Shown in pieces: positions 16,235 through 63,584 of a stretch of DNA of 64,000 nt. The notes beneath the pieces were generated by a model. It was given only the letters and a program-made list of their open reading frames with translations, searched no databases and was not told where the DNA came from. The first letter of the stretch is position 1. The number at the start of each line of letters is the position of its first letter. The position numbers and the translations under genes are program-made. Location: NCBI GenBank assembly GCA_018725565.1, contig QLUR01000003.1:1-64000 (forward strand), read 5' to 3'. The DNA comes from Bacillota bacterium (GTDB taxonomy: Bacteria > Bacillota > Dethiobacteria > Dethiobacterales > Dethiobacteraceae).

Positions 16235-16726
16235 ATGCTCATCGGTGTCATCAGCGACACCCACATTCCCCTGCGGGCCAAGCAATTGCCGGCCGCGCTG
16301 TTTAAAGCGCTGGACGGTGTTGACCTGCTGTTGCATGCCGGCGATCTGGTCGAAGAAAAAGTCCTGGATGAATTAAACAGCCTCGCCCCGGTGGAAGCGG
16401 TGGCCGGCAATATGGACCCCGTTCATCTGGCAACCTGCTTGGGTCGCAAGAAAGTACTGGACCTGTCAGGCTACCGGATCGGACTGATCCACGGCGACCT
16501 TGTTAACGACCGGCAAAATACGCCCCAGCGGGCGTACGAGGCGTTTATCAGCGATAATGTGGACTGCGTTGTCTTTGGGCACACCCACCAGCCTTATTGC
16601 CGGGAGGAAAGCGGCGTGCTGCTTTTTAACCCCGGTTCCCCGACAGACAGGCGCCGGGAACCGCGCCATTCCTGCGGACTGCTTATCCTTGGCGACAGGC
16701 TGACCGCCGAAATCATTTACCTTTGA
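16235..16726 (+). CDS. YfcE/MJ0936-type metallophosphoesterase
   Basis: Calcineurin-like phosphoesterase of 163-164 aa. Metal-binding motifs appear in order: ISDTH near the start, HAGDL, GNMD, a middle HGD, and GHTH near residue 113, with NPGS near the end. Members are phosphodiesterases of unknown cellular substrate. Two ATG codons (16232, 16235) follow GGAGG; the second has better spacing. Its stop overlaps the TTG proposed as selU start. Confidence 0.9.
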   Translation: MLIGVISDTHIPLRAKQLPAALFKALDGVDLLLHAGDLVEEKVLDELNSLAPVEAVAGNMDPVHLATCLGRKKVLDLSGYRIGLIHGDLVNDRQNTPQRAYEAFISDNVDCVVFGHTHQPYCREESGVLLFNPGSPTDRRREPRHSCGLLILGDRLTAEIIYL

Positions 16727-17868
16727 AAACTCTCCCGATAGTTGCGCCGGCTCCGGCCCGTGTCACTGAAGTTAAAAATACCGGACCGCAGGGAAGGACT
16801 GGAAATATTTTGCGTTCATTGCTAGGCGTGGAAGAGTGGCTTGATAAAAGAGAACAGTATTTCCTGGTGGACCTGCGCTCCCCGGGGGAGTTCAAAGCGG
16901 CTTCCATTCCCGGCGCGGTAAACATACCTCTTTTCAGCGATGATGAACGGGCAGCGGTCGGCACTGTTTACAGGCGGGAGGGGCCGCCGGCGGCAAAAAA
17001 AGTCGGCCTTGCGCTGGTGTCTCCCAAACTGCCTTGGCTTGTGGACACAATACTTTCCGGTGCCGGTACCAGAGAAATCCTTCTCTATTGTTGGCGCGGC
17101 GGGATGCGCAGCAATAGCCTGGCGGCCGTTATGGACGCTATTGGCTGCCCGGTAAGGTGCCTGGTGGGAGGCTACAAGGCGTTTCGCCGGCTTGTAGTGC
17201 GAGGCCTGGCCGGTACTTCTCTGCAGGTTCCGGTGTTTGTCTTAAACGGGCTGACCGGTGTAGGCAAAACCATGGTTATCCGCAGACTGGCCGGTCTGGG
17301 AGTGCCGGCGCTGGACCTGGAGGAGATGGCCGGCCACCGCGGTTCGGTTTTTGGCGGCATCGGTCTTGGCGCCCCACGCACTCAGAAGGATTTTGAAGCG
17401 TTATTGTTCCTTGAACTGTGGAAGCACAGAAAAGCGCGCTACCTGGTGGTCGAAGGTGAAGGCAGGCGGATAGGACCGGTCGTCCTGCCGGATTTTCTCA
17501 TCACCAACATGCAGGGCGGGCCCCGTATTCTGCTTGAAGCAAATTTGGAGGTGAGGGTGGCCAGGATTTTGGCTGAATACTTGTCGACCACGGCGGTACA
17601 GTTAAAGGAGCTGACCATTGCGGTCAACTCCTTGCGAAGCAGGCTGGGAGAAGAGAAATGTTCCCGCCTGGTGGGGAAAATCAGCGCCGGTCAATTTGCG
17701 GAGGCGGCACACGAACTTTGCACCGGCTATTACGACAGGCTTTACAAAGATTCGCGAGCCGCAGCCGCTCAATACCAGGCAGTTGTAAACATTGACGACC
17801 CGGAACAGGGTGTGCTGCGCCTGCTGGCGGTGATAGAGGAATATATGTCCGGTCGCTGCAGGTCCTGA
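16723..17868 (+). CDS. selU: tRNA 2-selenouridine synthase
   Basis: SelU (MnmH) replaces sulfur by selenium in 2-thiouridine at the wobble base of some tRNAs, using selenophosphate. Residues ~30-155 form a rhodanese domain (LVDLRSPGEF, catalytic cysteine in YCWRGGMRS). A P-loop follows (NGLTGVGKT, near residue 185). Length 381 aa is normal. The start is uncertain: TTG 16723 overlaps the upstream stop, but later TTG/GTG codons are possible. The gene implies selenophosphate synthetase (SelD) elsewhere in the genome, which matters for the candidate selenoprotein at 62 kb. Confidence 0.93.
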   Translation: MKTLPIVAPAPARVTEVKNTGPQGRTGNILRSLLGVEEWLDKREQYFLVDLRSPGEFKAASIPGAVNIPLFSDDERAAVGTVYRREGPPAAKKVGLALVSPKLPWLVDTILSGAGTREILLYCWRGGMRSNSLAAVMDAIGCPVRCLVGGYKAFRRLVVRGLAGTSLQVPVFVLNGLTGVGKTMVIRRLAGLGVPALDLEEMAGHRGSVFGGIGLGAPRTQKDFEALLFLELWKHRKARYLVVEGEGRRIGPVVLPDFLITNMQGGPRILLEANLEVRVARILAEYLSTTAVQLKELTIAVNSLRSRLGEEKCSRLVGKISAGQFAEAAHELCTGYYDRLYKDSRAAAAQYQAVVNIDDPEQGVLRLLAVIEEYMSGRCRS

Positions 17869-57325: not shown

Positions 57326-58250
57326 GTGAATGCCATGCTCGGCGAACAAAGCAAACAGACCAGTTTCTTGGATATCGAATCATGGTCTGCAAAGCCACTC
57401 GTGCAATCAGACAGCATATATGGCCTGTTGGCCGCATGGGGCGACAGACTTATCAAAGATGAAGACTTTGCTGAACTCTACGGTTCCACTGGGCGTCCCT
57501 CCGTTTCCCCTGCTTTGCTTGCTAAAGTAATGCTGTTGATGTACCACGACAATGTTTCAGACCGTGGGGCCGAGGAAAGAGCCACCTACGATCTGCGCTG
57601 GAAAGTCGCCTTGCAACTGCCCATTGATGAAGCAGGCTTTGATTATACCGCCCTTTGCCGCTTTCGCACCCGGCTGTTAGTAAACAAAAAACAAAAGCTG
57701 GTATTTGAACGGTTCGTCAACTTGGCCAAAGAAGCCGGTGTCCTCAAAGAAAACAGCCTGCAAATCATCGACTCTACCCACATCTTGGGTGCTGCGGCAG
57801 TAAAAGATACCTACAGCCTCATTAAAACCGCCATCCAGAAACTGCTGCAGATAACCCGCAAGGCTGGCGGCGCTGCAGGGCGGCAAATACAGACCCTCAC
57901 CCTCAACTTTGACTACAGTAAAGAAGGCAAAGAGGATATCAACTGGCACGATCCTGAAGCGCGCAAACAACTGTTAACCCATCTGGTCAAAGATAGCCGC
58001 GCCATCCTGGAGGCCATCAGGGACACCGACATGGTCAAAGAAGAAAAAGCCGCCGCGGAAATACTAAAGACTGTCACTGAACAGGATATCCGGGAGGGAA
58101 GCGGCGAAGTCAGTCTTCAGAACTCATCACCAAACACAAAATGAGACGCCGGAATTCAAGAAACAATACCGCCTCAGGGCGAAAGTGGAACGCAAAATAG
58201 CTCGTCTGGTGCGCCGCGGTGTCCGAAAGTCACGCTATATACGACTGTTT
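57326..58250 (+). pseudogene. IS1182-family transposase, internally deleted
   Basis: 57326-58144 encodes the N-terminal ~270 residues of an IS1182-type transposase (LIKDEDFAELYGSTGRPSVSPALLAKVMLLMYHDN and VALQLPIDEAGFDYTALCRFR, with IIDSTHILG). Just after the stop another frame continues ETPEFKKQYRLRAKVERKIA and ends SRYI, the family's C terminus. The DDE core between them is missing. No terminal inverted repeats could be assigned. Confidence 0.8.
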
Positions 58251-61604: not shown

Positions 61605-62013
61605 ACAGACATCAAAATAAATTGTAACAAATTTGCGCGGAAAGTCAATGTTTTTGGGAAATTTTTTTTTCTTTTCCGTCATAATCTTTGATTTTCATCG
61701 TTTTAAACCTGTTGTTAGCAGTTTTACTCAATATTTTATGGTCATCCGCTTTTTTTGCCTGCCTTTTCCAATCGCTCCGTCTGCTTTTAATTCGCCTGCT
61801 GCAGGACTCTGGCAGTGCCCCAAAAACAAAAACAGCCCTCTCTCCGACGGGCTTCTGCGTACCCGGTTTGGAATCCAGCACTCAGCAAAAATAAAACAAT
61901 TTTCTGAATTAACTTCGGGCACTTATCGCCAAATGCTTGAAACCAGCCGCTTTTTATGCCAGAATAGGGTTGCAGAGTTACTTATCTGCCAATTAACAAA
62001 CGGAGGTGTGAAC

Positions 62014-62844
62014 ATGCCTTCAGAAAAACTTGCCTCTCCGACAGAAGCCCTATCTCTGGTTAATGACAACATCACACTGGGTCTGGGAGGCGGACCTCTG
62101 GCCATGAATCCGGTGTCACTTGTCGCCGGGCTGATTATTGAGCAAAGGCATAATCTACGGCTGGTGCTCGCGCCGATAGGCGGCTTTGCCGCCGACCTGC
62201 TGATTGCGGCCGGTGCGGTCGATGCCGTGGAGTTTGCCCAACTTGCTTTCGAAGAGTTTGGCATGGCCCCCGGCTTTCGCAACCGTTCACAGCAGGGCAC
62301 CCTGCACACGCTTGACCATACCTGACCCGGATTGCTTGCCGCGCTCCAGGCTGGAGCGCTGGGAGTGCCTTTTATGCCGGTCCGCGGGGTGGTTGGCAGT
62401 GACTATACCAAGATCAGAACTGACTTTAAAACGATTAAAAATCCTTACGGAGATGACGAGATTCTCCTTGTTCCCGCTATCAGCCCCGACGTCTCGCTGA
62501 TCCATGCCTTCCGGGCGGACCGTTACGGAAACTGCGTGTTAAACAGCGCACTGGATGATGCCCTGCTGGCCCGTGCATCGAATAAGGTGATTGTTTCTGC
62601 TGAGGAAATTGTGGAAACCTCGGAGCTGAAGACGTCACAACGTGGCAATTTTGTCAGCCGTGTCCATGTGAGCGCCGTTGTCTGCCTGCCCGGCGGGGCC
62701 GCTCCCACTTCCTGCGGAACGTATTACCGCGAAAAAGCAGATGTCTTGCTTGAGTATCTGGATGCGGCGAAACACCCTGAGCGTTTAACCGACTATCTGC
62801 AGGAATTCAGCCTGCGCTGCCGCAATGGAGGTGAATTGCTGTGA
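62014..62844 (+). CDS. CoA-transferase A-subunit family protein with in-frame UGA (candidate Sec104)
   Basis: Family I CoA-transferase alpha-like subunit (COG1788), 276 aa if the UGA is read. It starts at ATG 62014 after GGAGGTG, with the Gly-rich loop LGLGGGPLA. UGA is codon 104 (62323-62325). Before it the reading is GTLHTLDHT; after it, in the same frame, PGLLAALQAGALGVPF continues the family pattern (compare the AALGLPF region of glutaconate CoA-transferase) to a normal C terminus. Fifteen bases after the UGA lies a perfect hairpin with loop GGC, as expected of a bacterial SECIS. By my mental alignment, codon 104 falls near the active-site residue of the A chain in the IpdAB ring hydrolases (from memory). 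Alternatives are a recent nonsense mutation or sequence error. Confidence 0.7.
62341..62359 (+). promoter_or_regulatory. Candidate bacterial SECIS hairpin
   Basis: GCGCTCCA-GGC-TGGAGCGC forms an 8-bp perfect stem. The loop begins 23 bases after the UGA, within the usual window for bacterial SECIS (about 16-37), and has the conserved G at its start; the apex CAGGCTG resembles CAGGTCTG of E. coli fdhF. Confidence 0.55.
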
Positions 62845-63584
62845 CAACCGTTGCTTTGCACTATACCACAGAAGAACTGATGGCCGCCTTGATTGCCCGT
62901 GAAATCCGCAACGGCGAAACTGTGGCGGTCGGCACCTTCTCTCCCATCCCGGCCAGCGGTGCGCTTCTGGCTAAAGCAAGCCACGCACCGGACAGCGAGG
63001 TTTTTATCATGGGCAGCCGCGACTGGTGGCCGTTTTCAGAAGGGAGCCTGGAATTCTTCAGTCTGGCTCAGCGCGGGCGCTTTGATTTCTTTTTCTTGAG
63101 CGGGGCCCAGATTGACCGTCAGGGAAACATTAATTTGCACGCGATTGGAAACTATTCCCGTCCGAAAGTACGCTTGCCAGGCGGCGCAGGCTCGGCAATG
63201 CTGTACTACATGGTAAAAAAAGTTATCCTGTTCAAAACCGACCACACAGTCAAATCTTTTGTGGAAACAATAGATTTTATCACCAGTGCCGCGTCTTCTC
63301 CGCCTGCTCTTTACCGGCCAGGCGGCCTCCACCTGGTAATCACTCCCCTGGCTGTACTGGTTAAAAACGCCGGCAGCGGCTTATTGGAGCTTCTCTCTTT
63401 CAGTCCTGGCACCTCGGTTGAGGAAGTACGAGCCAATACCGGATTTAGCCTGCCTGACTTCAGTGGTGGGGTCACAGAAACTACCCCGCCTGCCCCTGAA
63501 GAGCTCGCTCTGTTACGCGGTCCGGTCCGTGAGAGCATTGCCAGTATTTATCCCCGTTTCGCCGGACAGGCTTTCAAAAGTTAA
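62841..63584 (+). CDS. CoA-transferase B-subunit family protein
   Basis: 247 aa, beta-like subunit (COG2057). It starts at GTG 62841, overlapping the A-subunit stop (GTGA). Family features: VAVGTFSPIPASGALLA, SGAQIDRQGNINLHAIG and GGAGSAMLYYM. The place where transferases have the catalytic glutamate (in an ESG or ENG context) reads FIMGSRDWW here, so the CoA-thioester-forming Glu seems absent. This suggests hydrolase or other CoA chemistry (inference). Confidence 0.88.
   Translation: MTTVALHYTTEELMAALIAREIRNGETVAVGTFSPIPASGALLAKASHAPDSEVFIMGSRDWWPFSEGSLEFFSLAQRGRFDFFFLSGAQIDRQGNINLHAIGNYSRPKVRLPGGAGSAMLYYMVKKVILFKTDHTVKSFVETIDFITSAASSPPALYRPGGLHLVITPLAVLVKNAGSGLLELLSFSPGTSVEEVRANTGFSLPDFSGGVTETTPPAPEELALLRGPVRESIASIYPRFAGQAFKS

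Follow-up and report, generated by a model that had tools for sequence, protein, structure and literature searches.

A conserved in-frame UGA as a probable selenocysteine codon at the presumed active site of a CoA-transferase-fold protein family

Introduction

A UGA codon within an otherwise open gene raises the question of whether the gene is broken or whether it encodes selenocysteine (Sec). The question arises here for a two-gene locus in the window, the 64,000-nucleotide stretch of contig QLUR01000003.1 (assembly GCA_018725565.1, Bacillota bacterium, Dethiobacteraceae) that was analyzed. The original prediction, made from the sequence of the window, proposed that the A subunit of a protein pair with the CoA-transferase fold is a candidate selenoprotein, and stated that no established selenoprotein was known in this family. 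The latter statement agrees with an inventory of prokaryotic selenoproteins from 2026: among its 119 families and subfamilies, including the Haft families of 2023 and 2025, none has the CoA-transferase fold, PF01144 (PMC13188914, Table 1). A literature search likewise found no description of a selenoprotein with this fold, and the few co-mentions appear coincidental as judged from titles and abstracts. The selenoproteins known so far are, to our knowledge, nearly all enzymes of the thiol-redox or metal-ligand kind. In NCBIfam release 20.0 no model scores above its cut-off for the A subunit, and because no NCBIfam model covers Sec-form genes of this family, genome annotation at present probably truncates them at the UGA.

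Results and Discussion

The A-subunit gene and its internal UGA

The features discussed here are collected in Table 1. The A-subunit gene had been described as intact save for one UGA, and its reading frame indeed contains a single internal TGA, at codon 104, and is open otherwise. The downstream gene had been described as intact and coupled to the distal stop, which also holds: the B-subunit gene is intact and its GTG start overlaps the A-subunit stop codon in a shared GTGA. Pfam CoA_trans (PF01144) matches the A subunit with an E-value of 1.3e-14 (54.6 bits) and is present in the B subunit as well. A pseudogene, a sequencing error or ordinary readthrough of the UGA without Sec would be a rival explanation of such a gene, given that UGA is a stop codon under translation table 11 and that the assembly is fragmented; the genome of the window and those of many of its relatives are fragmented assemblies of the metagenome type.

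Table 1. Positions of the features discussed in the text, in window coordinates unless a locus label precedes the positions.
Feature	Position	Strand	Basis or remark
selU/mnmH, tRNA 2-selenouridine synthase	~16630..17865 (open frame limits)	+	NCBIfam NF008750, TIGR03167
Putative ribosome-binding site GGAGGTG, 5' of the A-subunit ATG	62001..62009	+	sequence
A subunit of CoA-transferase-fold heterodimer, 276 aa, predicted Sec at residue 104, terminal UGA	62014..62844	+	TGA=U translation
Predicted Sec-encoding UGA, codon 104	62323..62325	+	counterpart of Cys in 35 homologues and of IpdA Glu105
SECIS stem-loop, GCGCTCCA-GGC-TGGAGCGC, 8-bp stem and GGC loop, spaced 15 nt from the UGA	62341..62359	+
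B subunit, 247 aa, start overlaps A stop	62841..63584	+
CoA-disulfide-reductase-like (rhodanese fusion)	L163:6836-8500
CoA-disulfide-reductase-like	L165:2062-3732
CoA-disulfide-reductase-like	L159:6107-7279
CoA-disulfide-reductase-like	L162:231-1403
CoA-disulfide-reductase-like	L158:7494-8321

Conservation of the UGA and cysteine counterparts

Counting the window, 42 genes, one from each of 42 genomes of Bacillota-type bacteria and Desulfobacterota, have a UGA at the same aligned codon. Within the window's family, homologues from four further genera (61–68% identity) have one in-frame TGA apiece, at codon 104; a class-wide search added six further homologues (45–53% identity) with a single TGA each, and among the class-level orthologues the UGA falls at exactly codon 104 in 11 of 11. 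The phylum-wide sample contains a second subfamily, recognizable by the motif EGSU, and an EHTU form, both from more distant Bacillota-type genomes and both with UGA. The Desulfobacterota sample comprised 297 genomes from the phylum of a Desulfarculus-type genome, with matches counted at a set threshold; 24 of these genomes have a match, and 18 of the 24 have TGA at exactly the codon-104 position. The contig search for homologues gave matches with an alignment as query and none with a single protein. Among named records, family members occur in Dethiobacter, Syntrophomonadaceae, Desulfovirgula and Desulfarculaceae metagenome assemblies. Since so many separately assembled genomes share the same UGA, a base-calling error, which the original prediction had named as one way in which it might fail, is excluded.

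The alignment at codon 104 that had been proposed as a check returns either Sec (UGA) or Cys in near relatives, with no TGG or CGA state. The nearest non-UGA homologues (35 sampled) have Cys at this position, which is the state of 35 of the 78 A subunits in the tree set, and in a 35-row alignment position 104, as Sec or Cys, is among 16 invariant columns. Distant paralogues have Glu, Asn, Ala, Gln or His there. Neither Trp nor Arg occurs at the position among the sampled relatives, and decoding of the UGA as Trp is ruled out by the lack of any homologue with Trp at the site. The Sec label requires three changes on the tree, compared with a mean of 21 when labels are shuffled. The presence of the same UGA in 42 genes rules out a pseudogene, a sequencing error or a simple stop, and Cys is the sole alternative in near homologues; together with the covarying hairpin and the full Sec machinery described below, these observations leave such rival explanations, ordinary readthrough included, with almost no credence.

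The Cys form occurs in Archaea (Acidilobaceae, Caldisphaera, Metallosphaera, Calditenuaceae), Alphaproteobacteria, Burkholderiales-type bacteria and Actinobacteria, and the existence of Cys versions in Archaea and Proteobacteria poses directly the question of what Sec adds over Cys. The A subunits of an ESCC branch, among them those of a Mycobacterium homologue (L090) and L069, have Cys. Inspection by eye suggests that the B subunit in Mycobacterium (LLVEGATY) may retain a Glu near the catalytic position, and this branch may work differently. In a Glu-type homologue from a Desulfobacterota genome (L144, G703:C53:16786-17568) the matched stretch contains a TAG and a TAA, one of each, which might point to a decayed copy or a frame problem.

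The SECIS hairpin

The perfect stem-loop with a guanine-starting GGC loop that had been reported 15 nt after the UGA was located (Table 1); all eight pairs are perfect and the apical loop starts with G. The same nucleotides encode the peptide ALQAGAL, and the original prediction cautioned that part of the match could be chance. With respect to folding the caution is fair, as the single-sequence folding energy, which had been suggested as a check, is unremarkable (z = -1.0) and uninformative alone, so that comparison among genes decides. That comparison speaks against chance, both in the compensatory changes found and in the behavior of the Cys homologues. In all 42 UGA genes a loop at an unchanged offset is closed by 5 bp or more, and in 40 of the 42 by 6 bp or more. 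Of 33 Cys homologues that code for almost the same peptide, none has a stem as long as 6 bp.

Among 16 aligned near-clade genes, 99.1% of the cells of the 7-bp stem are paired, and changes on both sides of the stem account for 13 cells, compared with 3.6 ± 1.4 in shuffles. The stem score is 0.405 versus 0.170 in shuffles, and it falls to near zero when the partner columns are slid so that pairing is destroyed. In one gene (L032) both sides of the stem have changed (GGACTGCG/CGCAGTCC) and eight pairs are kept. In the EGSU subfamily, pairs outside the core weaken when the stem is forced into the near-clade register, and the subfamily forms a stem of its own. Constraint is evident also in codon choice: codons 110–115 are identical across five genera of the window's family, at ~65% protein identity, and form the only run of this length in the gene, with 13 of 121 other invariant-residue codons identical elsewhere. 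Random draws that followed each gene's own codon usage gave identity at five of these six codons in 0 of 200,000 cases.

A chance hairpin imposed by the coding sequence is ruled out by the codon-identity run, the covariation and the Cys-homologue control, and on this comparative evidence the hairpin downstream of UGA-104 behaves as a real bacterial SECIS. As SECIS examples, the gene set supplies dozens of hairpins whose compensatory changes are clean, with the Cys genes as a built-in control.

Selenocysteine machinery and other selenium use

A search of the genome for selA, selB, selC and selD, on which the original prediction was made to depend, found all four. The tRNA-Sec gene (selC) is present, and selA, selB and selD form a cluster on contig C28, the products scoring 564 bits for SelA (cut-off 268), 387 bits for SelB (cut-off 242) and 375 bits for SelD (cut-off 125). 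The selD gene (G000:C28:18219-19148, L118) itself has an in-frame Sec-UGA, within SGGGUAVK. The selU gene noticed earlier in the window is confirmed as well, with 338 bits against NF008750 (cut-off 241) and 316 bits against TIGR03167 (cut-off 220), and gives this genome a further use for selenophosphate.

SelB scores above the cut-off in 22 of the 24 other UGA-form genomes. One exception (G023, 75% complete) has neither SelB nor tRNA-Sec, and the other (G064) has tRNA-Sec but no SelB. In two Desulfarculaceae genomes SelB is present and tRNA-Sec was not found among the 120 candidates scored of about 850–900. Some genomes with the Cys form have SelB and others lack it, which would be expected were SelB needed by the UGA form alone; Alphaproteobacterial genomes (L089, L092, L096, L098 and L108) have a strong SelB match, yet carry the Cys form.

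The conservation of the UGA, the Sec/Cys pairing, the SECIS covariation and the machinery argue together for a genuine selenoprotein, with UGA-104 very probably specifying Sec at an active-site position of the A subunit. Pairing of Sec with Cys, a SECIS directly after the UGA and the presence of the Sec machinery are all features shared with known prokaryotic selenoprotein families. The A-subunit family would thus constitute a new and widespread selenoprotein family, with UGA retained at this codon by dozens of anaerobic bacteria. The ribosome would read UGA-104 as Sec, with the hairpin recruiting SelB and its bound Sec-tRNA(Sec), and with SelA, SelB, SelC and SelD all supplied by the genome.

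Fold and the presumed active site

The solved structures nearest to the A subunit in sequence and fold are AibA, IpdA and then GctA. The best fold matches of the A-subunit model (pLDDT 88) are IpdA and AibA, and a Foldseek comparison of the model with IpdAB gives an E-value of about 1e-20 and a TM-score of 0.86. In phmmer alignments residue 104 is aligned with Glu105 of IpdA, a residue that is Glu in entries 6co6 and 6co9 and Ala in 6coj, the title of which describes IpdAB E105A with COCHEA-CoA. From this mutant and the literature, we take Glu105 to be the catalytic residue of IpdAB.

In classical CoA-transferases a glutamate of the B subunit is the covalent carrier. The B subunit of the window has Ile/Met where class I CoA-transferases have this catalytic Glu, and in an alignment of B subunits those beside Sec A subunits and those of near Cys relatives have I/V/L/M at the Glu column; in the same alignment, Glu-type B subunits from the same EGSU operons keep Glu. 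Sec104 appears to occupy the presumed active site, replacing a catalytic carboxylate. With the catalytic Glu missing from its B subunit, the Sec-bearing branch is probably not a CoA-transferase. The CoA-transferase fold named in the original prediction stands, supported by PF01144 in both subunits and by the fold match of the A subunit.

It might nevertheless be argued from the membership of both subunits in CoA_trans that Sec takes over the role of glutamate as covalent carrier and that CoA is moved between carboxylates. This we consider improbable: the B subunit has no carrier Glu, a selenol is unable by established chemistry to form the mixed anhydride through which CoA passes to a carboxylate in the classical route, and IpdAB, which also lacks the carrier Glu and has Gly57 of IpdB in its place, showed no CoA transfer (PMC5380842).

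Three characterized systems define the setting in which a residue in the position of Sec104 might act. IpdAB is the ring-cleaving COCHEA-CoA hydrolase of steroid degradation, and AibA/AibB is a 3-methylglutaconyl-CoA decarboxylase. IpdAB (PDB 6co6, 6co9, 6coj, 6con) resembles the Sec pair in its fold, its A/B heterodimer, its B subunit lacking the CoA-transferase Glu, and in that the residue mutated as catalytic belongs to the A subunit and aligns with Sec104; it differs in having Glu105 rather than Sec104 and in a sequence identity of ~26%, and no steroid-degradation genes are seen beside the Sec pair. AibA (PDB 5mzw) is the best sequence match to the A subunit among solved structures, and in AibB the catalytic Glu is replaced by Cys56 (PMC7756340). 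In AibAB, however, the thiol is in the B subunit, where the window protein has Ile/Met, and not in the A subunit, where AibA has Gly at the Sec104 position; selenium is not involved. Glutaconate CoA-transferase GctAB (PDB 1poi) shares fold and subunit layout with the Sec pair but uses Glu54 of its B subunit, which the Sec pair lacks (PMC5380842). By alignment, then, the reactive residue would be a Glu in B in GctAB, a thiol in B in AibAB, a Glu in A in IpdAB, and a selenol or thiol in A in the Sec family.

From fold and alignment, the A subunit and the adjacent B subunit would form a heterodimer like that of glutaconate CoA-transferase with a moved active-site residue, the carrier glutamate of B being lost and the selenol of A (a thiol in Cys homologues) lying at the position of IpdAB Glu105. 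The pair is probably an acyl-CoA hydrolase or a C–C lyase rather than a CoA-transferase, a reaction that we infer from sequence comparison. Acting on a CoA thioester, Sec104 would most likely attack as a nucleophile to give an acyl-selenoenzyme intermediate, or serve as acid/base in C–C cleavage, and the outcome may be hydrolysis, retro-Claisen cleavage or decarboxylation instead of CoA transfer. Such non-redox use of selenium in acyl-transfer or C–C-cleaving chemistry, in the place of a glutamate, is put forward tentatively as one possible mechanism. A selenoprotein of this fold with Sec at the carboxylate position of IpdAB would bring acyl-CoA metabolism into the field of selenium biochemistry.

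Gene neighborhood

In the window's own family the A/B pair has only glycogen and polyamine genes next to it, and these neighbors are uninformative. Elsewhere, an acyl-CoA ligase and an acyl-CoA dehydrogenase adjoin the Sec pair in Desulfarculaceae, an acyl-CoA ligase lies directly upstream of the pair at L148, an amidohydrolase and a second CoA-transferase pair are near it at L147, and HMGL-like enzymes and ordinary CoA-transferases also occur among the neighbors. The neighbors in several lineages thus support a context of acyl-CoA catabolism; one pathway shared by all was not found from the gene neighborhoods.

A different role for Sec104 would be redox chemistry, in which CoA disulfide or persulfide is reduced or formed by way of a selenenylsulfide between Sec104 and coenzyme A, and a flavin disulfide reductase or an Hdr-like complex recycles the residue; the protein would remain a selenoprotein. 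Most characterized selenoproteins are redox enzymes, and some neighbors point in this direction. CoA-disulfide-reductase-like genes, so called from a best NCBIfam match to TIGR03385 that is below its cut-off, lie ~0.1–3 kb from the pair in two unrelated groups (L163 and L165; L158, L159 and L162), hinting at a thiol-redox link. Pyr_redox_2 proteins are near the Cys homologues of one archaeon and one mycobacterium, and the EGSU operon contains HdrA/HdrB-like proteins. On the other hand, there is no redox neighbor in the window's own family, the neighbors in other lineages are largely those of acyl-CoA metabolism listed above, the fold is one that acts on acyl-CoA, and the aligned residue of IpdA is a carboxylate. 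On balance a redox role seems rather unlikely, and action of Sec104 on a CoA thioester is retained as the working proposal.

The EGSU operon (L064–L068, L164) looks like an undescribed catabolic operon, encoding, in addition to the Sec pair, a sigma-54 regulator with CBS domains, an HdrC-like protein beside those resembling HdrA and HdrB, an MFS transporter and an ordinary Glu-type CoA-transferase pair. In the window itself, a transposase-like ORF is found at 57326–58144, ~4 kb upstream of the A-subunit gene.
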